A DNA stretch of 64,000 nt from Medakamo hakoo (lineage: Eukaryota > Chlorophyta > Trebouxiophyceae > Coccomyxaceae): contig CP089453.1 of assembly GCA_026636295.1 (NCBI GenBank), positions 496,001-560,000 on the forward strand, written 5' to 3'. Positions 39,124 to 51,515 of the stretch are shown one piece after another (positions within the stretch are counted from its first letter, which is position 1; each line of letters opens with the position of its first letter). A model generated the notes under the pieces. That model had not been told where the DNA came from. It made no database searches and worked only from the letters and a program-made list of their open reading frames with translations. Position numbers and translations under genes: made by a program.

Positions 39124-41946
39124 ATGGACCCGCCGCTGCCGGCGCCAGCGGCGCGGCCGCCCACTCGCACACCCGCCCCGCTGCCGCTGCCGCGGCGGGA
39201 CGGCGGTGCCGCGACGCTCGCCCCATCCTCCTCTGTCCTCGCGACGGTCGAGTCTGGTGGCACTGGCGCGACAAACCTCGCCGCGTTCGACGGCGCGGAC
39301 TCGGCGCCGTCGGCTGCTGCTGTGCGGCCGCCCTCTGCCAGCTCCATTCCAGGTGAGGAGGGTGTGGTGGGAGTCAGTGGGGCGGAAGGCCGCCGCCTCT
39401 GTGCGTCTGTTCTGCGTTGCTGCGTTCAATTCGGCGCGCGGCGAACGACAGGCCGCGCCTTCTTTTTTGGCTTCGCGGCCACCGCCTCGCCCGCTCTCCC
39501 GCCCCGCGCCGTCCTCGCCTGCCTGGCACACGCACGACACGTGCACCCACCGCGCGGCGGAACGAGGCTCGGCCGTGACGCGCGCATCGTTTCTCCGGAC
39601 CTTTTTTTGCTCTCACACTCCAACCATCCATGCCGCCCCTCCCTCCCACCGCCCCTCTCCCAGTCCCACGCTCGTTCGTCCGGGGCGCCATGAAACGCCC
39701 GGGCCTGGACACGGGCGACGTCGTGACTTTCGCCGACGGCGGGTCGCCCTACGCGGCCGTGCCCGTCGCCGTCCCCGGCGGCGGCGCCGCCGCGCCCCAG
39801 CCCGCCGACCCGCCGGCGGGCGGCACGGCCGTCCACTGGGTCCTCGAACCCCGCGGCGGCGGCGGGCACGGCGCCGGGCGCCCGCCATCGTCGCCCGAGG
39901 ACACGTCCACCCTGCTGGAAGTCGTCCGGTCCGGCGACTGGTACGGCCTGCGGTCCGCGGCCGCCGGCGGCCGCTTCCTCCAAGCCCGCCGCCGCGGCGG
40001 GCGCCGCCTCGCCTTTTTCAGCCCGCACTTTGGCGTGTGCGAGCAGTGGGAGCTGGTGGGCGGGGCGCCGGGCGTGCCGTGGGAAGCTGCGCGGTTGGGG
40101 TTTCGGAACCGGCGGTTTCCGCAGGTGTTTTTCGCGGCGGACGTGACGCGGGTCGGCAGCGCGGCCGCGCCCGCGCCGACGCCGCGGTCTTTCGTCGGCC
40201 CGGGCAGTGTCGTGGGCGGTGGGAGCGTGGCTGGCGCTTCGACAGCCCACCACCCGGACCGCGTGGCCGGCGTCGTCGTGGGAGAGTGGCTCCAGTTCGT
40301 GGCGCGGGAGCAGGGCGCGCGCGCGGCGCTGGACGCGCGCACGCGCGAGCTGGCTGCCGAGGTCGCCGCGCTCAAAGCCTGGGCGTCGGACGCCGTCGCG
40401 GCGACGCGCGCCGCCCTGGCGTCCGAGCTCACCGCTCTGTCGTCGGACTTGGCCGCGGCTGAGCGCGCGGCCGACGCGGCGGCGGCCCGGCGCGCGGCGG
40501 CGGAGGGCGCGCTGGCGGCCGTCGCGGCGGCCGCGCGCGAGCGCATGGTCAAAGCGACGGCCGCCCGCTCCGCCCGCCTCGCCCTGGCGACCTGGCGCAT
40601 CAACGCCCGGGCGTCGGCTGCGCGGGCTGAGGTGGCGGCGCGCTGGGCCGCTGACCGGGAAAAGGCGGTCGGGCGCAGCATCCTGCGGGCGTGGGCGCGC
40701 GCGGCGGCCCGACAGACCGCGGCCGCGGCCGGGTTGGCCAGGGCGGTCGACCGGTCGGCGGCCCGCCGCCTGTCGTCCGCCCTGGCGGCCTGGCGGGGCG
40801 TCGCGGCCGCGTCCGCCGCCGCCCGCACCGGCGCGGCCGAGCTGTCCATCCGCCGTGCGCGTCGCACCGCGTCCACCGCCCTAGCCGCGTGGCGGGCGCA
40901 GGCGGCTGGCGCGCGGGTCTCAGCCGCGGGCGCGGCCGCCGCCGCGTCGGCCGGCCTGGCCCGCCGCGCGCTGCGCGCCTGGGCGGCCGAAGCGGCTTTT
41001 GCCACCCGCTCTCGGTCTGCCCTGGCATCCGCCGTCGACGCCGCCGCCACCCGCCGTGTCGCCGCCGCCTTCACGGCCTGGCGGGCTGTCGCGTCCGCGT
41101 CCGCGCGAGGGCGTCGCATCGTCGCGGGCCGCGACGCCGCGCGCGACGCGGCGACCGCTCGGGCCGCTGTGCGCGCCTGGGCGGGCGTGGCCGCGTCCGC
41201 CGCTTCCCGCCGCCGGGCTGCTGCGGCTGTGACGGCGCGCTCCAACCGCGGCGCGGCCCGCCGCGCCCTGCAGGCGTGGGCGGGTGTTGCGTCCGCTGCG
41301 GCCGACGCGCGCGCCGCGGCCGAAGCCGCGGCTGCGGCCCGTTCCCTCCGCCTGGCCCGGGCCGCCGCTGCGCGTTGGCGGGCGGCCACTGCCGCCGCCA
41401 CCGAACGCCGCGCGGCCGCGTCCGACTTTGTCTCGCGCCGGGCGGACGCGCTGATGCGCGCGTCACTGCGCGCGTGGCATGGCGTGGCGGCAGACGCGGC
41501 CGCGGGGCGGGAGCGCGTCGCCCGCTGCATCGCGGCGCAAGCCGCGGCCCGCGTGGCGCTGGAAGCCCGGTACTGGGACGCGCTGGACGCGGGCGTGGCG
41601 GGTCTGGTGGCCCGGCTCTACCACAGCAGCGGCGGCGGTGAGGCGGCGGCGGCGGGCGCGCGGGCGGTGGAGGAGGTTGGTGGAGGCGGCGCCGCCCTGG
41701 CCGGGCCGCCTCTCCCGCCCGTCGAGCGGGGCGCGCTGGCCGCGCCCCCAGCGGCTCCGCCGTCCTTCCCTAACCTGGCCGCCGTGTCGGCGTGGGTGGA
41801 CGCGACCCAGCCGGCCGTCCCGCCGCTGGCGCTGCCGGCTGAGGTCGCTCCTGCGCCTCCGCCGCCACCACCGCCCGTCCGCCCGGTCGCGGCCGCCGCC
41901 GCTCCCCAGCTGCGGCCGCGCTCGCCGTTAAGCCGGGCCAGCCGGC

Positions 41947-42001
<55 letters not shown>

Positions 42002-42386
42002 ACCCGCTCGGCGGACGGCGATGAACCCTGCGCCAGCGGCTGCGGCCTTTGGTCGGCGCGCGCCGCCGGCGGGTCCGCTGCGCCCGCAGGTCACGGCGGC
42101 GTCGAAAAAGGCGCCCGCGGCGGGGTCTCAGCCTGCGCCACAGCGGCCGCAAGCCAAGCAAGCCGGCGCTCTGCCGGCGGCGGCCAAGGCGGCGGCGCCT
42201 CAACAACCGCCGGCCATCACGCGCCGCTTTGGCACGGCCGCCCAGGAGTCGGCGGCTGTTCCCAACAACAGCAGCCTCACCGGGCCGTCGCCTGCCCGGG
42301 CGGCCGCCCTGGCGGCGGGCCGGGTGCGGGCGGCGCGCGGCGCGTTCATGGGCGGCGGCGGGAGTGGGGAGAATGGCGGGGTGTGA
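39124..42386 (+). CDS. Beta-trefoil-like protein with ten 33-residue Sfi1-like Trp repeats
   Basis: Exons 39124-39352 and 39664-42386 (CCAG|GTGAGG, CCCAG|TC, phase 1) give 983 residues. After a disordered start, residues about 80-200 contain GDWYGLRSAAAGGRFLQARR and SPHFGVCEQWELV, which resemble a fascin/DUF569-type beta-trefoil. A coiled-coil region follows. Then come ten copies of a helix ending in AL-x-AW-R/A. The Trp residues are spaced 33 residues apart in eight of nine steps and 30 in one. Period and Leu-x-Ala-Trp pattern match the centrin-binding repeats of yeast Sfi1, so a role at basal bodies or centrosomes is suggested (inference). The tail is Pro/Ala-rich with a pure PA repeat. No orthologue is recognised. 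Confidence 0.75.
41949..42006 (+). repeat. (CGCCCG)n coding hexanucleotide repeat
   Basis: About nine tandem CGCCCG units encode an alternating Pro-Ala stretch in the C-terminal tail of the Trp-repeat protein. Its length is likely to vary. Confidence 0.9.
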
Positions 42387-42418: not shown

Positions 42419-43862
42419 TTACTTCTTCTTCCTCGCACCACCACCCTTTGCCTTCCGCTCCACGCCCACCCCACCTTCTTCGAGCACGCGTTCAGCCTCC
42501 TCCGCCCGCCCAGACGCTTTCAGAGCTGCCGCATAAGCGCGCACGACATCCGCACCTAAACTCGGGTCCGCCGCACGCGCGGCCGCGTACGTGGCCACCG
42601 CACCCGCCGCGTCCCCACGCCCCGCCAGCGCGGCCGCCCGTCCCACGCGCGCAGCCGAGCACGCCGTGTCCTCGCCACTCAGCACGCGGTCGTACGCAGC
42701 CAGCGCCGTCTCATAATCCCCCGCGCCAGCCGCCGCGCTCCCCGCCTCCAAATCCGCAGCGGCAGTCCGCAGAACCGCCGCCGCCTCAGCCGCGCCGGCC
42801 GGCGGGTCCTCCGCGCCCGCCGCCTCGCCCGCCAGGGCCGCCGCCCGGCTCAGCTCACTCAAGCCGGTTGCGAGGGCGCGCGCAGCCGCCATCAGCAAGT
42901 CTGGCGGCGGCGCCTCCCCCTTTTTTCGGTACTTCCGCACGGCCTTGTCCAGGCGGGCCGCGCCCGCGGCCGGGTCGCCCGCGGCTGTTTCCGCGGCTGC
43001 CGTCGCGATGGTGGCCAGGTCGGCCGCGGAGACGCGGAGTGGGGGCTTGGGTGGGGGTGGTGGGTCCACGGCAGCAGCGCAAGCAGGAGGTTCTTCAGGC
43101 GCGGCGGCCGGCTCCTCAGGTGGCGGCGGCGGCGCGGCGGGCGCCCCGGCCTCTGGCGCACCACCACCGCCCTCGCCACTCCCGTCGCCGACGTCTTCGC
43201 CGTCCGCCGCCCGCTGCAGGATCGGAAACATCTCGCCCAGCCCGCCAGGCGCCTTCAAATTCCAGTCCAAGGAAGCCGCGGCCAACTGGCGGCGTTGCGC
43301 GTCGCTCGCGGCCAGCCCGCCCGTCGTCACGTCGTCGTCGCACATGAAAGACAGGAAGCCTTTCAGGATGGTCGCCACGCTCCAGCTGGGGTTCCACGCG
43401 TGGAAGGCCGTGAAGCCGTCCACACAGATGGCTGTCCCCGTCGCAAACCTCCCGTTTGGCGTGATCATGGACACGTGCGGCGCGCTGAACGGGTAGTTGT
43501 CATCGAAGCGCAGCCTGCCCACATACCACCCGCCCTCGTACGGCGTGTCGGGCGGGCCGCGCAACAAAAAGTGCCAGGTCGTGATGGCGTCGCCGACGTG
43601 GACGGCCGGAATGTAGGGTGGCGGGTCGAGCAGGATGGCCCTGAGTTCTTTCTTGAGTCTGTTTTTTTGGAGGGCGGGGGGAGGGAGGGAGTGGGAAGGT
43701 TTGATGGGGGGAGAGCGAGCGCGCCGGTCGTCGTGCGCCGGCCGTCCGCCACGACCCCGCCACGCCTCCGTCCTCTCTCCTCCCTCCACGGCTGGGAGCC
43801 AGGAGACTCTGATATACCTAGCGCGTCACTCACTTTGCGATGCAGACCTTCGTCGGCGCCAT
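42419..43862 (-). CDS. UBE2J2-type ubiquitin-conjugating enzyme with C-terminal TPR-like region
   Basis: E2 enzyme of the UBC6/UBE2J group. Exons on the minus strand are 43862-43834 (29 bases) and 43658-42419; phase 2 joining gives MAPTKVCIAK|LKKELRAILLDPPPYI, 422 residues in all. Core motifs: TTWHFLLRGPPDTPYEGGWYVG, MITPNGRFATGTAICV with the catalytic Cys, FHAWNPSWSVATILKGFLSFM (the J-class WNP-W-S-V), and RRQLAAASLDWN. Family members normally end in a transmembrane anchor for ER-associated degradation. Here the anchor is missing; after a Pro/Ala linker come helices of TPR type (DYETALAAYDRVLSG, DAAGAVATYAAARAADP) and a Lys-rich end. That suggests a soluble E2 recruited by protein contacts (inference). 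Confidence 0.88.
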
Positions 43863-44155: not shown

Positions 44156-47100
44156 TCATTTTTTGTCCATGGCCGCAGGACCCACACCCGCCGGCGACGG
44201 CGGCCCACGGGCGGGCGGCGGCTTGAACGCAAAGGGCGACCCCGCGCCAGCAGCGGCGCTGGGGACGCCGCCCGCACTCCCACCCCCGACGTCCGTGCTC
44301 CAGTCGCGGAGCGACGACTCGCGCCCGGTGAGCGGCGCGCCACCACCAGTCCCAGCGCCGGCGCCACCACCTCCAGCCGCCGCCGCGCCGCGCGGGCTGG
44401 GCGGCGCCGTGTTGGCGGTGCCGCCGCCCACGCCGCCAGCCGGGCGGGCAAAGGGCGTGGGCCCGCCCACGCCGGGCGGCGGCGCGCGCGGCGACGCGGC
44501 CGGGGACGCGGACGCAGAGCGCAGCGCGGCCGCGTGGACGGCCGCAGCCGCGGCCGCCGCCGCGGCCGCCGCGCGCGGGGACGCCGGCACGCCGCCCCCG
44601 CCCCGATCCAGGGACCGCATGCGGGCGGGCGCGCGCGCCGCGGCGTCGAGCAGCGCCCGCTCCGCGTCGTCGATGACGACGGTGCGGGCTTCGCCCTTGC
44701 CCGCGCGCACGGTCGCGGTCGTGCCGCCCGCCGACCCGCCCGACCCGCCGGCCGACCCGTTGGCGGACGGAGCGGGGGCGGCGGCAGGCGCAGCGGCGGT
44801 CTTGCCGCCTTTGGCCGCGGCCTGGGCGGCCAGGCTCGCCATCTGTTCCGCGGACAGACGCTGCAGCGGCAGGCCCGCCGCGGTGGGCGCGGGCGCGCCG
44901 CCGGCCCCGCCACCGCCGCCGCCCTGCTGCAAGCGGGCCGCCAGGGCGGCGGCCTGGTCGCCGCCCAACGCCGCCGCCGCCGCGGCGGCAGCTTCAGCCG
45001 ACGCGTCCAAGCCGTCGCCTGGGGCGGGCGCGTCGCCACCCGCGCCGCCGTCGCCGCCCTCACCACCCGGCCCAGGCGGGCCGCCGCCGTCCCCACCACC
45101 ACCGCCTCCGCCGTCCGGCGCCGCGCCCGCCTCGGCGTAGAACCGGGCCTGGAACAGGGCGACCAGCGCGTCCAGGTGGACGGTCACGCCGTGGCGGGTG
45201 GCCTGGAAGCCGGCGTTGGCTTCGTCGACCGCGCCCTGCGCCAGCGCCCGCACGTCCTCCATGAACCGCCCGTACTCGTCCTGGATGGCGGCGACGCGCA
45301 GGGCGTGGGCGCGGTCCAGCAGCGCGATCTGCTCGCAGACGGCCCGGATTTGGGTGGCGACGGCATCGTACTCCGCCCGGGCTTCGTACGAGGACGCCAG
45401 GTGGGGCGGGGGCGGCGGCAGGGGCGGCGGCCCGGCGCGGGCTTCGGCCGGGCCGTCGGCCGCGGCCGCGCGCGTGAAGTCGCCCGCGACCAGCTCGCCC
45501 AAGCGGGCGGCGAAGCCATCCAAGTCAGCGGCGGGGCCAGGGCCGGAGTGGGCGGGCGGCGGGCCGGGGCCGCCGCCGCCGCCGCCCCCGCCGCCGTCGC
45601 CAGACCGGCCGCCCCCCCCGCCGGCGCAGTGCCCCGCCAGCACGTCCTCGGCCGCGCCAAACGCCGTGCGCACGCGGTCGCACAGGGCCCGGTAGGAATT
45701 CAGGGACGCCATGACGTAGTCCAGGACGGTCTGCAGCGATTCGGGGTCGTGGCCGTGGGTGGTGGCCAGCCGGCGCGGGTCGGCCGCGACGTGGCTGCGC
45801 GGCACGCCGGCCAGCCGCGCGGCCGCGGCCACGACCGCCAGCAGCGTGTAGTCTTGGAAGTCGGACGGCGGCTCGCCGTCGGGGCGGCCCGCCAGCAGGA
45901 CGTCCGCCGCCTGACGCGCCAGCTCCCCGGCGCCGGGCGGCAGGCCCAGCTGGCGCACCAGGGCGCCGACTTTCGCGTACGCGCGCCGCGCGACGCCGCC
46001 CTCGGCCGACAGCGGGTCGGCAATCAGGCGCATCCGGGTTTCTTGCAGCGCCCACTCCCGGGCGACGTCGGGCAGGGGGACGGCGCCCAGGGGCGTGTCG
46101 GCGCCAACCGCCGCATCGTCGTACGGCGGCGTGTCGTCCATGGCCACGCGGCCGCGCTTGGCGTCGCCGCCCAGGCCGTCGTCCTCCGGGCGGCGGCGGC
46201 GGCCCGCCCCGCCCGCGGCTGGGCGGCCGCCGCGGCGGCCGCCCCGGCCACCGCGCCCGCCGTCGTCCGTGCCGCCCGCGCCGTCGTCGTCCAGCAGCAT
46301 GCCGGCCACGCCGCCCTCGTCTTCCGTCTCGCCCGTGCGGCCGTGCAAGACGCCGCCGGGCGCGAAGGGCGCGGCTTCCGCAGCAGCGGCTTCGGCCGCG
46401 TCGGCAGCCGCCGCGTCGGCGGCGGCACCCGCCAAGGCTGCGGGCCAGTAGGCGGGCGGGATGGGGGCGTCGGTCGACGGGACCGGGGTCGCGGCCGTGC
46501 CAGTCGTGGCGGCGGAGCCCGGGCGGTCGGCGGTGGCGGCGTCTCCGCCGTCCTCGTCGTCGTCGCCCGCGGCCGCCGCATTGTCCCCGGCCAAATCCGT
46601 GACGCCCGCGCCGTCTGGCAGGGCGGGCGGCGACGCGGCGCTGGCTTGACCGCCGCACAGCCAGTCTGCGGCCGCGTCCAGGTGGGCGTCGTCGTAGGAC
46701 GCGATAGTGGGCGGCGGCGGCGTCGGCGTCGGCGGCCGCGGCGGGGCGGGGTCGGGGCCGTCGCCGCCGTCCCCACCCCCGCCTTCCGCCTTGACGCCGC
46801 CGGCCGCGATGGCGGCCACGCCCGCATCCAGACCGTCCGGGCACAGGAAGTCGGCGGCCCAGCGCAGGGCGTCCTCCAGGGCGCGCTCGCCGGCCTTGCC
46901 CCGGCGCGGCGCGGGCGACGCGCGGCCGAGCAGGCGCTCTTCCACCGAGCGCGCGATGACCAGCCGCACGACAGGGGGCGGCGGCCCGCCCGCGCTTCCC
47001 AGCGCCCGTGCCCGGGCCAGGGACGCGGCGTCGTGGCGGCGGGACCAGGCCGAGTCAAAGGCCAGGACGACGGTCGCGCCGGGCAGCGGCGTGCCCAGGC

Positions 47101-50100
47101 CGAGCGCCTTGGCCGCCGCGACCAGGAGCCACGCGTCCGGGCGGCGGCCGTCGGCGTCGTTGAACGCGGCCAGGGCCGCGTCGCGGTCGGACGGCGGCGT
47201 GTCGACGCGCAGGACGCCCACGGCCGACGGCTCACCCCCGCCCGCAATGACCACCGTCTTGCAAAAGTCGGCGGCCAGGGCCAGCGACCGGTCGCCGCCG
47301 GCGACAGTCACCAACACGCGCGCGCCGCGGTCGCGCAGGCGGGGCAGCAGCCGGCCCATCAGCGCGAGTTTGGCGGAGCCCATGGCCGCCGCCGCGCCCG
47401 GCGGTGGGGCGGGCGGCACGGCCGCGCCCGCTCGGCCCGTGCCCAGGCCTGCGTGCGCGCACAGCTTGAGCTGCTCGTCGACGGCGGCCCGCAGCGCGTC
47501 GGCGTGGTCGGCCGGGTTGGAGGCGTTGCTGAGAGCCGGCAGGGCCCGGCCCAGGGCCAGGCGCGCCGCGGACGCCTGGTCGGCGGTCGGCGCGACGGGC
47601 AGGGTCAGTTCCAGGGCGGGCAGCGTGGGCGGCGCGCCCGCGGCGGACCGGTCGCGGCGCAGGGTCGCGCCCGCCAGCGCGGCCATGGCCGGCGAGTCGG
47701 CCGCCTGGGCTTCGGCCGACGAAAACCGCCCCGGCCACAGGAACGCCGCCGCGGCCGCGCGTTCCGCCGGGTGGGAGGAGGCGTCGTACGGGCGGCGGGC
47801 CAGCACCAATCGCGCGCCCGCGTCCAGGCCACCGCCCACCGCGTCGGCGCCGCGGGCGATGGCCCGGCGCGCGCCCGACCGCGCATCCAGGATGATGGCC
47901 GCCCACGGCAGGGCCGCCAGCGCCGCCTTCTCCGCGCCCGCCGCGTCAAAGGGCGCCAGGACAAAGTCAGGGCGCGGGACACGGCCGGTGGCAGGGGTCG
48001 CGGGCGCGGGACCGGCCTTGGCGTCGCCGCCGCCGCCCTCCCCGCCGCCGCCGTCCTCGCCCATCTCTGTCCCCCGCCCCTCCCGCACTCGGAAAGTCGA
48101 CCGCCCGTCGAGCGCGGACGGCGGCACCCACAGCTCCCGGTCGCGCACCGCGCCGCGCACGGCGGGCGGACCGGCCAGGCGGGCGACGTCCGCGGCGGGC
48201 GCCCAGGCGGCCAGGTCGGCGGTCCAGGCGCCCAGGGCGGCCGCCGCGCAGACTACGAGGACGGGGCGCGGGTCGCGCGCGTCGAAGCGCAGGGCGTGCG
48301 CCCACGCCAGGGCGGACGCGCCCCGGCCCAGGCCCGCGGCGTCGGCCAGGATCGACGCCCGGCCACCCGCACCGGGCCCGGCCGCCCACCGGCCGCGCAG
48401 CCACTCGACGGCGGCGCGCTGGTGGGGCAGGAGGGCCGCCCCGCCGCGCGCACGCAGCCACGACGGCGGCCAAAAGGCGAACGGCAGCGGGCCGGGCGGC
48501 TCGCCGTCGGGCGCGCCCGCGTTTTCCACGCGCGCGGCTTCTTCAAGTTCGGCAGCCCGGGCAGACGCGGCAGCAGCGGCGGCGGGCGACGCCCGGCGTT
48601 CGGCGCCCTCCATCTGCCGCCACGCGCGTGCGAGCAGGGCGGCGCCGGGCGGGCTGGCCAGCACGCCGCCGCCCTCCGGCTCCCACGTCGCCGCGTCGGC
48701 GGGCAGGCCCGTCCACCGGACCAGGGCCTCCCACCCGGGCCCGGCGGGAGCGGGGCGGCGGCCGACCACTTTTTCGGGCACCGACCACCGCGGCTCCGAC
48801 AGGTCGCACGGCGCGCCGCCGTGCGCGGACCGGAAGGCCTTCAACGCTTCCCGCCCGCCGGGGACCCGGCCCAGCGCCGCTTCGCACGCCCACTCGTCGT
48901 GGACGTGCGCCCGCCCTACCCAGTGGACCAGGAATTCGGGTGGGGCGTCTCCCGCGCCGGCGCCGCCGTACCGCCAGCCCAGGATGGCGCCGACCGTGGG
49001 CGCTTGGAGCGAGCGCGCGGCGGCGCGGCCCGCAGCCGTCCCCGCCGCGCCCCACCCGCCGTCGGAGTCCGCGTCGGCCGGGTCTCCCTCCTCGATGGGG
49101 AGCGTGACAGCAGCGCGGGCGGCTTGCGTGGCGGCCAGGGCCGCAGCAGCGGCCCGGACGCACGCTTCCAGCGTGGAGTCGGCCGCCGGCGCGCCGTCCG
49201 GGTTGACGCGCGGCGGCCCGCCCTCCGGCCCCAGCTCGAACGGGCACAGGGCCGGACCCGGCAGCCACGCGAACTCGGCTTCGTCCGCGTCCGCGTCGGT
49301 TTGAGACGCGCCATTCACCCCGCCCGGGCTGGGCTCGCCCGTGGGCGCGGCGGCGGCTTCCGCGTCGCGGTCGAGGGCGAGGCCGCGGCCGCTGGCCCGC
49401 CCCGCGCGCGCGGGGTCGACGTCGCCGTCGTCGTCGTCGTCCGACGCGGCCACCGCGGCGGCGGCAACAGCCGCAGCACGGCACCCCCGCCTCAACTCAG
49501 CGGGCAGGCCGCGCGGCGTGAAGAATGCGACGGGCACAAAGGCGCGGACGGCCGCGGGCGTCGCGCGGCCGTCGGGCCCCGCGCACCCTGGCGGTGGGCC
49601 GACCTCACGCGGCACGGCTCGGCGCCGGACCACGCGCGCCGGCCACCAGTCGTGCCCCTCGACTTTGGCCCACACCGCATCGCCCGGGCGGAAGGGCGGC
49701 GGCGGCGCCGGCGGGTAAGACGCGGCCGGGTGGGTGTGGTGGTGGTGGTGCACGGCCGCGGCGGCGGCGTGGTGCGCGTAAAACTCGCCGCCGTCGTCCA
49801 CGTCGGACGGGCCGACGCCGTAGTGCTCGCCGCCGTGCTCGCCGCCGTCGCCGTCATACCCGCCGCCGTAGCCGTCGTCGTCGTAGGGCGGGCCGGCGCT
49901 GCCGTCGTCGCCGTCGTCGCCGCCGAAGCCCATGCCCAGCAACGCTTCCGCGGCCTCGCTCAGCCCGCGGGCGGCGGCGCGGCCAGAGCCCGCGGCGCCG
50001 GCGCCGCCTCCCGCCCGGCCGCCGCGACCCGGGCGGGACCCGCGCGGCGCGGCGGGGCGGGACCGAGGGGCGGGACCGCCGGGCGGCGCGCCCGGCAGGC

Positions 50101-51515
50101 CGGCCGAGCCCGGGCGGGCGGCCGCGGCGGCCGCCGAGCCACCGCCGACGGACGCACGCCCACGCGGGCGGGCGGGCCCACTGTCGGGCCCGGCGTCACC
50201 GGCCCGCCCGGCCCGGCCCGCCCGCCCACGCGCCGGACCCGTCGACCGCTGGCGGGAGCGGGCGCCGCCCGCCCGGCCGCGCGCGCGCGGGTTGGCCGGC
50301 CCGCCCTCGCCCTGGGTGGACAGCCCGTCGTCGTCGAAGCCCGACCCGCCGGCCGACCCGCGGGCGCCCGGGGGCAGGCCGGTGCCGTCGTCGTCGTCCA
50401 AGCCCTCGTTGGCGCCCGCGGCCAAGTCCGGGCCGGCCTGCAAAGCCAGGATTTCGTCGATGGCCGCGTCCGACAGCGCTTGCGGCACGGAACAGTCGGC
50501 GTGCGACGGGTCCCACACATTGCCCGCGCACGTCCAGTCGTCCGGGATGGCATCCTCGGGCAGCTCGTACGGCACCTGGCGCCACAGGTTGCAGGACGCG
50601 CACTGCACCCACTTTTGTGGGGCCGGGCGGGCCGGGGGTTGGTGGGGTGGAGGCGGCGGCGCCCCGGCCGCCTCGGCCCCGCCCGACCCGCCCGACCCGG
50701 CGCGCGGGGCTTGCGACCGGTTGCGGCCGCGTGGCGCGCCGCCGGAGCCGCGCGCGCCCGTGGACCCGCCGCGTGCTCCAGCGCCGGGCGGGGGCGGTGA
50801 GTCGCCGTCACCAGTGCCGTCGGCAGCGGTGGTCGGAGCGTCGCCGCCCTCACCGCCGTCCGCCGGTTCCGCGTCGGCAAAGGCGGCCAGGGCGCCCAGC
50901 GCGCCGGCCGCGTCCGCGTCGTCGGCGGGTGGTTGAGGAGGCGGCTGCGTGGCCGGCTGGTGTTGGGGGTGGGTGGAAAGGGATGGTGCGGGGGGGGGGG
51001 GGGGGGGCGGATGGGATGGTGCGGGGGGGCCGGGGCCGGGTCGGCTCGAGCTTTCTGTGCGCGAGCAATCCGCCCCCAGCCGTCGACGCCGGTGGAACGT
51101 GCCCGCACACGGGCGAGCCCGCAGCCCTGAGCCGGGCACGCCATGCGCTACTCCCTGAACACGCAGGACGCGCCGCTCCCGGGAACGAGGCCTCGCCTCC
51201 GTGGAGAGGGAGCACTCGCGCCGTGGAGCGCAGTCGCAGGCGAGTGCAGCCCCGCCCGTCCACGTGCTCCATGCCTCCCTTGCCAGTAAAACTCACCTCT
51301 TCACCGGCGCGCTCGCCTGTGCGTGTGTTTTGATGGCAGGGTGATGGGCGTGGGGTGGGGAGGTGAGAGGCAGGGCGGGACGGGAAAAAAGAGCGGAGCG
51401 AAGAGGAATGCAAGCAGCACGAGCGGGGGCACCGCAGCCGGGCCAGTGCTCTGGCATCTGACGCACGATCCGGGCCTTCCGTCGCTGCCAGGGTGAGGCG
51501 GACACCCGCCGCCAT
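44156..51515 (-). CDS. MOM1/CHD-like chromatin protein: CW, PWWP, two chromodomains, degenerate SNF2
   Basis: One exon of 2266 codons spans 50956-44156. The 5' end is not certain: the frame has no ATG before the CW domain, and an acceptor AACACCAG ends at 50957. A strong donor GAAGAG|GTGAGT at 51297/51296 in matching phase suggests an exon from an ATG at 51515 (or 51614). Domains by position: CW zinc finger (about 50612-50450, CASCNLWRQVP), PWWP (about 49690-49530, AVWAKVEGHDWWPARVV), chromodomains (about 48985-48830 and 48790-48680), SNF2 N-lobe (about 48450-47560) and C-lobe (about 47370-46850). The SNF2 part follows CHD proteins but has lost its catalytic residues: Walker A reads ADAAGLGRG, the DEAH box LDARS, and HRIGQ is RALGS. 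It should not hydrolyse ATP. Arabidopsis MOM1 also has a degenerate CHD3-like SNF2 region. Gly/Ala-rich stretches fill the rest. Confidence 0.82.

Follow-up and report, generated by a model that had tools for sequence, protein, structure and literature searches.

We analysed a 64,000-nucleotide stretch of the genome of Medakamo hakoo (GCA_026636295.1, contig CP089453.1, positions 496,001 to 560,000), hereafter the window, in which a single minus-strand open reading frame (ORF; 51139..44156) encodes a protein of 2327 amino acids (the window protein). Medakamo has been described as a trebouxiophyte green alga sister to Choricystis, and its genome comprises 15,638,232 bases in 16 contigs. The antisense of the frame is likewise open over 2088 amino acids at a local GC content of 80%; therefore, the length of the open frame is no proof of a gene. 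We took the frame as real because its product aligned with two orthologues, P0001 (jgi) and P0002 (ena), across most of its length. The GC contents of its three codon positions were 0.84, 0.69, and 0.90. The features of the locus are as follows (residue numbers refer to the 2327-residue frame).

51297..51515, minus strand: candidate first exon with ATG at 51515 (splice-site model)
44156..50956, minus strand: main coding exon, stop at 44156 (ORF, orthologue alignment, splice model)
50474..50620, minus strand: CW zinc finger, residues 174-222 (Pfam, orthologue alignment, PDB comparison)
49505..49693, minus strand: PWWP domain, residues 483-545, core GHDWWPARV (Pfam, over cut-off)
48794..49003, minus strand: chromodomain 1, residues 713-782, CHD type (PDB profile comparison)
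48620..48793, minus strand: chromodomain 2, residues 783-840 (Pfam, over cut-off; PDB alignment)
47645..48436, minus strand: SNF2 lobe 1, residues 902-1165, degenerate (Pfam, PDB comparison, profile)
48314..48349, minus strand: motif I, LADAAGLGRGAS in place of LADEMGLGKTxQ (motif alignment)
47864..47887, minus strand: motif II, DARSGARR in place of DEAHRLKN (motif alignment, CHD4 alignment)
46904..47392, minus strand: SNF2 lobe 2, residues 1250-1412, degenerate (PDB comparison, profile)
46994..47026, minus strand: motif VI, ASLARARALGS in place of QAxxRAHRIGQ (motif alignment)
45632..46093, minus strand: C-terminal region A, residues 1683-1836 (83% identical to P0002)
45686..46006, minus strand: putative cyclin-box/TFIIB-like domain, residues 1712-1818 (predicted fold)
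45128..45529, minus strand: C-terminal region B, residues 1871-2004 (conservation; 74% identical to P0002)

All six in-frame combinations of ATG, GTRAG donor, and AG acceptor shared the donor GT at 51296, with the ATG at 51515 or 51614 and acceptors preceding 50956 or 50944. The end at 51515 given for this gene in an earlier note, which was made from the DNA letters alone, plausibly fits such a predicted first exon (ATG at 51515 or 51614), and the spliced protein would start differently from the 2327-residue frame.

Pfam matches above the cut-off were obtained for CW (4.7e-13, residues 177-220), PWWP (2.7e-07, 486-541), Chromo (7.4e-07, 787-822), and SNF2 (2.9e-06, 906-990), and Helicase_C scored 15.3 bits, below its cut-off of 23.5. 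C180, C183, C204, and C216 of the CW domain, together with W177 and W186, were invariant in all three orthologues (the window protein, P0001, and P0002), and the four zinc cysteines and two tryptophans were retained in the alignment with MORC3. Chromodomain 1 gave no separate Pfam stretch and was recognized by PDB comparison; R743 stands where the aligned CHD1 chain 5afw has the tryptophan of the GWSH stretch. The pair of chromodomains lies ahead of SNF2 and aligned with the double chromodomain of yeast Chd1. The CW, PWWP, and tandem chromodomains claimed in the earlier note are thus confirmed by Pfam and by this Chd1 alignment. No Pfam match to a PHD finger or to the CHD1-type helix-turn-helix (HTH) was found in the window protein.

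The genome contains 33 SNF2 matches, from which 20 loci were fetched and 12 were included in the tree and motif table; L011, L016, L020, L022, L024, L025, L027, and L028 were fetched and left out, and the matches on contig C5 at 427504 and 105855 were not among the fetched loci. The 12 loci and a fungal-type SNF2 protein (P0003), found additionally in the first orthologue search, were aligned together with the three degenerate proteins and served as 13 comparison rows for a SNF2 profile. This profile matched residues 902-1407 of the window protein with 131.7 bits in one stretch and 137.3 bits in all, and 500 shuffled versions of residues 895-1412 scored no higher than 3.5 bits against the same profile.

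The catalytic residues were replaced throughout this region (given in the order window protein/P0001/P0002). In Walker A, K939 became R/R/R and T940 became G/A/A; in the DEAH box, E1086 became A/G/A and H1088 became S/A/S; TGTP of motif III was replaced by ARRP/ARRP/ARAP; G1346 of motif V became L/L/L; and in motif VI, Q1372 became A/G/G, R1379 became A/C/A, and Q1382 became S/A/D. R939, A1114, and R1115 are replacements fixed in all three orthologues. D1085 of the DEAH box, G-L-G of motif I, and G1347 and G1349 of motif V were retained, as was R1376 of motif VI in two of the three. The comparison rows kept the Walker A lysine (12 of the 12 rows with this column; that of L019 lies in a neighbouring frame) and threonine (13/13), the DEAH glutamate (13/13) and histidine (12/13; L010 has DEAQ), the glycine and second threonine of motif III (13/13 each; first threonine, 11/13), and the arginine finger (13/13). 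Since these residues are kept in all or nearly all comparison rows, neither the assembly nor the genome composition explains the losses. The losses quoted in the earlier note (GLGRG for Walker A, LDARS for the DEAH box, and RALGS for HRIGQ) were exact, its SNF2 segment aligned with CHD4 as stated, and its reading of a dead motor is supported.

The comparison rows have 130 conserved columns, of which 49 were kept in all three orthologues. Motif columns were kept in 6/24 cases and other conserved columns in 43/106 (p 0.17, with motif I misfiled among the others); after motif I was reassigned by hand, the values were 10/32 and 39/98. Motif columns were therefore not preferentially lost relative to other conserved positions, and we describe the motor as having drifted in its entirety once catalysis had been abandoned.

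The orthologues came from searches of a set of 5.8 billion proteins with the SNF2, C-terminal, and CW regions (7978, 7973, and 17 candidates scored, respectively), all three of which returned P0001 and P0002 among the candidates scored. Their global identities to the window protein were 77 and 58%, respectively, and their clusters contain 15 and 11 member sequences. The catalytic losses were common to both; the refuting condition set in the earlier note, orthologues with intact catalytic residues, was thus not observed. Identity between the window protein and P0002 was 80% in CW, 85% in PWWP, 83% in C-terminal region A, and 74% in region B, compared with 54 and 57% in the chromodomains, 61% in lobe 1, and 52% in lobe 2. 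We infer that the sources of P0001 and P0002 are kin of Medakamo. P0001 begins with V, as if produced by a prokaryote-style gene caller; with such calling, orthologues from algae rich in introns might escape detection, so that their absence says little. A search of the own genome with a 731-residue piece returned the piece itself and weak matches only at the ISWI locus (L023) and L019, and nothing was found in the viral contigs and plasmids searched.

The best match in single-sequence PDB comparison was CHD4 (1.8e-18), and profile comparison gave 95.3 bits for a Chd1-type chain, 83.0 for CHD4, and 82.8 for ISW1. In a 16-row SNF2 tree, the clade of the window protein was sister to the CHD3-type L014 of the same genome (PHD, chromo, and SNF2 domains) with support of 92/89 (not starred) and a stem of 3.39. 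A clade with the CHD1-type L013 (p-AU, approximately unbiased test, 0.075) or with both CHDs (0.057) was not rejected. A clade with the ISWI-type L023 was rejected (0.033). Given the long stem and the odd composition of six rows, including the three dead ones, the CHD3 placement is a lean rather than a firm result. CHD descent, also proposed earlier, is supported at the sequence level by the double chromodomain followed by SNF2, by the position beside the own CHD3, and by the Chd1-type chains as top PDB hits. Like CHD1 and CHD3 (Mi-2, PICKLE), the window protein has two tandem chromodomains ahead of its two SNF2 lobes; unlike them, it lacks a working motor and any PHD or CHD1-type HTH match, carries CW and PWWP in its N-terminal part, and ends in a new C-terminal region. 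A third CHD-like gene (L019:698-5934, minus strand, G000:C15), with chromodomain and SNF2 in two frames, also fell near the CHDs in the tree.

The conserved C-terminal domain was absent from the account in the earlier note. Region A had no Pfam match over the cut-off, including TFIIB, and no relevant sequence match in PDB. The mean confidence of the AF2 blocks over A3 residues 41-130 was 46-85, with six of nine blocks at 74 or above, and VIA-align of the predicted fold gave Z up to 10.9. All 50 fold matches listed were to entries whose titles name TFIIB, BRF, or cyclin, chain identity being read from the title. The cyclin-box region also matched TFIIB repeats weakly at the profile level; two tandem repeats were not seen, the scan giving one such region. 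In region B, a helix of 62 residues (1918-1979) was predicted within a helix block of pLDDT (predicted local distance difference test) 51-64 and is possibly a coiled coil. Two cyclin loci of the own genome compared singly with the C-terminal core gave no signal; this comparison says little, as the L051 slice contained no cyclin and was probably taken from the wrong strand. The own-genome search with the C-terminus returned 13 rows, namely itself and 12 weak ones lying mostly over a glycine-rich stretch. Windows of five own ORFs scored at most 32.2 against the C-terminus over 16-77 columns, which we took for composition. One relative of the TFIIB-type gene on C10 of the own genome turned up when prokaryote genomes were scanned. 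Cyclin fold, TFIIB, and chromodomain were not found together in the literature search.

The sequence shows that the window protein combines a CHD layout with the loss of ATP-binding and hydrolysis residues, the same losses occurring in three orthologues, and that its CW, PWWP, and C-terminal domains are strongly conserved, the chromodomains and SNF2 lobes more weakly. PWWP domains are readers of methylated H3K36. CW domains have been described as binding methylated H3K4, and ZCWPW1 as a reader of H3K4me3 and H3K36me3. We favour, at even chances of being right, a CHD-family remodeller that turned into a non-catalytic chromatin reader and adaptor before the three known lineages diverged. Its CW and PWWP domains would bind nucleosomes methylated at H3K4 and H3K36 (or DNA), while the motor, no longer active, would serve at most as a nucleosome or DNA clamp or a protein platform. 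The cyclin-box-like domain may hold a partner, either a component of the transcription machinery or a kinase, and the long helix after it may dimerize. A partner would thereby be brought to marked chromatin without nucleosome movement. The genome has 14 SET-domain matches, whose proteins are possible writers of these marks. A more specific form is tentative and somewhat improbable: a new family, in picoalgae of the Medakamo lineage, whose dead CHD motor lies between CW/PWWP and a cyclin-box/TFIIB-like domain and which directly tethers initiation machinery or a cyclin-dependent kinase (CDK) to nucleosomes methylated at H3K4/H3K36. In the literature searched, no paper combined CW domain, chromodomain, SNF2, and green algae, and a single, unrelated proteomics paper mentioned 'CW-type zinc finger', chromodomain, PWWP, and SNF2.

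The earlier note had called the protein MOM1-like and suggested an ancestral algal form of a silencing scaffold. According to PMC2507757, MOM1 derives from CHD3; its relatives hold all seven helicase motifs, PtMOM1 and SmMOM1 retain the CHD3 layout with essential SNF2 residues replaced identically across plant species, and PtMOM1 keeps the double chromodomain and has a PHD finger. A MOM1-type silencing scaffold, that is, a CHD3 descendant with a dispensable motor and a silencing C-terminus that arose by convergence or very old common descent, would fit the CHD3 neighbour in the tree (92/89), the conserved replacement of essential SNF2 residues, and the single DNA methylase match that the genome contains. 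It would also fit the conserved, helical C-terminus, given that MOM1 silences through the C-terminal coiled coil CMM2 (PMC3276543), which this silencing requires (PMC2507757). The likeness to MOM1 thus covers a SNF2 region of CHD3 origin (CHD3 or CHD1 in the window protein) with conserved replacements and a C-terminal helical region, and to PtMOM1 the double chromodomain. However, CMM2, and hence MOM1, was reported from vascular plants only, with none in Physcomitrella or Chlamydomonas (PMC2507757), and no MOM1 chain was among the 47 PDB matches listed for the C-terminus, which is not a strict test for CMM2. MOM1 is further marked by CMM1-3 and, in Arabidopsis, by a partial SNF2 deletion; the accounts of MOM1 in PMC2507757 mention neither CW nor PWWP, and the window protein has both and no PHD. 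The CHD3-like At5g44800 of Arabidopsis likewise has a SNF2 region mutated at residues that remodelling requires, and the passage on it in PMC2507757 mentions no CW or PWWP. The resemblance of a conserved dead CHD motor therefore stands, and kinship with MOM1 and the ancestral algal form are unsupported. Nor do the marks that CW and PWWP domains are known to read (methylated H3K4 and H3K36) point to silencing; as they favour active chromatin, we prefer the adaptor and consider the MOM1-type scaffold unlikely. Given the reported distribution of MOM1, the algal losses are probably independent of those in MOM1. Were a tree nevertheless to join the window protein to MOM1, MOM1 would be far older than thought.

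A reader of two marks like ZCWPW1, in which CW and PWWP recruit the protein to doubly methylated nucleosomes, e.g. in recombination or repair, and the rest is vestigial, would agree with the CW and PWWP shared within a single protein, with the match of the CW slice to the ZCWPW1 CW (2e61), and with the dual reading described for ZCWPW1. We regard it as decidedly unlikely, since the C-terminal domain is conserved as highly as the readers. ZCWPW1, moreover, is not known to have a chromodomain, SNF2, or counterpart of the C-terminus. A working remodeller with an unusual active site could account for the retention of both lobes and some motif residues and is very improbable against the loss, in all three orthologues, of the Walker A K and T, the DEAH E and H, the TGT of motif III, and the finger arginine. 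Sequencing error or a decaying pseudogene, for which no evidence was found, is refuted, leaving a negligible chance, by two separate orthologues with the same losses at 77 and 58% identity and in clusters of 15 and 11. The adaptor reading would add a further case of a CHD remodeller turned non-enzymatic chromatin protein, probably independent of MOM1, from a single-celled alga whose genome measures 16 Mb. Such a protein raises the question of what use a remodeller body has when it does not hydrolyse ATP, and its conserved C-terminal domain may directly bridge histone marks to a transcription-factor fold.

Fungal Hda2/Hda3 (PF11496) use a SNF2-like fold as a scaffold without ATPase; they differ from the window protein in complex and layout. 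A second CW-SNF2 protein of Medakamo (L027:1853-6664, plus strand, G000:C5), with weak F-box-like and weak RING matches, shares the combination of CW and SNF2 and differs in that its CW is inserted inside the SNF2 domain, between motif I and the remainder, and that the motor motifs GLGKT and DEGH are present. SET and partial CW matches lie ca. 0.8 kb apart on the same strand at G000:C8:249683-250890 (minus strand) and may belong to a CW-SET (ASHH2-like) histone methyltransferase gene, and SET and PWWP matches occur in an apparently single frame of 1262 amino acids at G000:C4:491976-493709 (minus strand), possibly a trithorax-type methyltransferase. Within the window, a frame of 918 amino acids (39630-42386, plus strand) contains many ALxAW-type helical repeats without a Pfam match, which presumably resemble centrin-binding Sfi1 repeats. 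Next to it (42419-43789, minus strand), an E2-like UBC domain is followed by a sub-cut-off TPR match, an unusual pairing.
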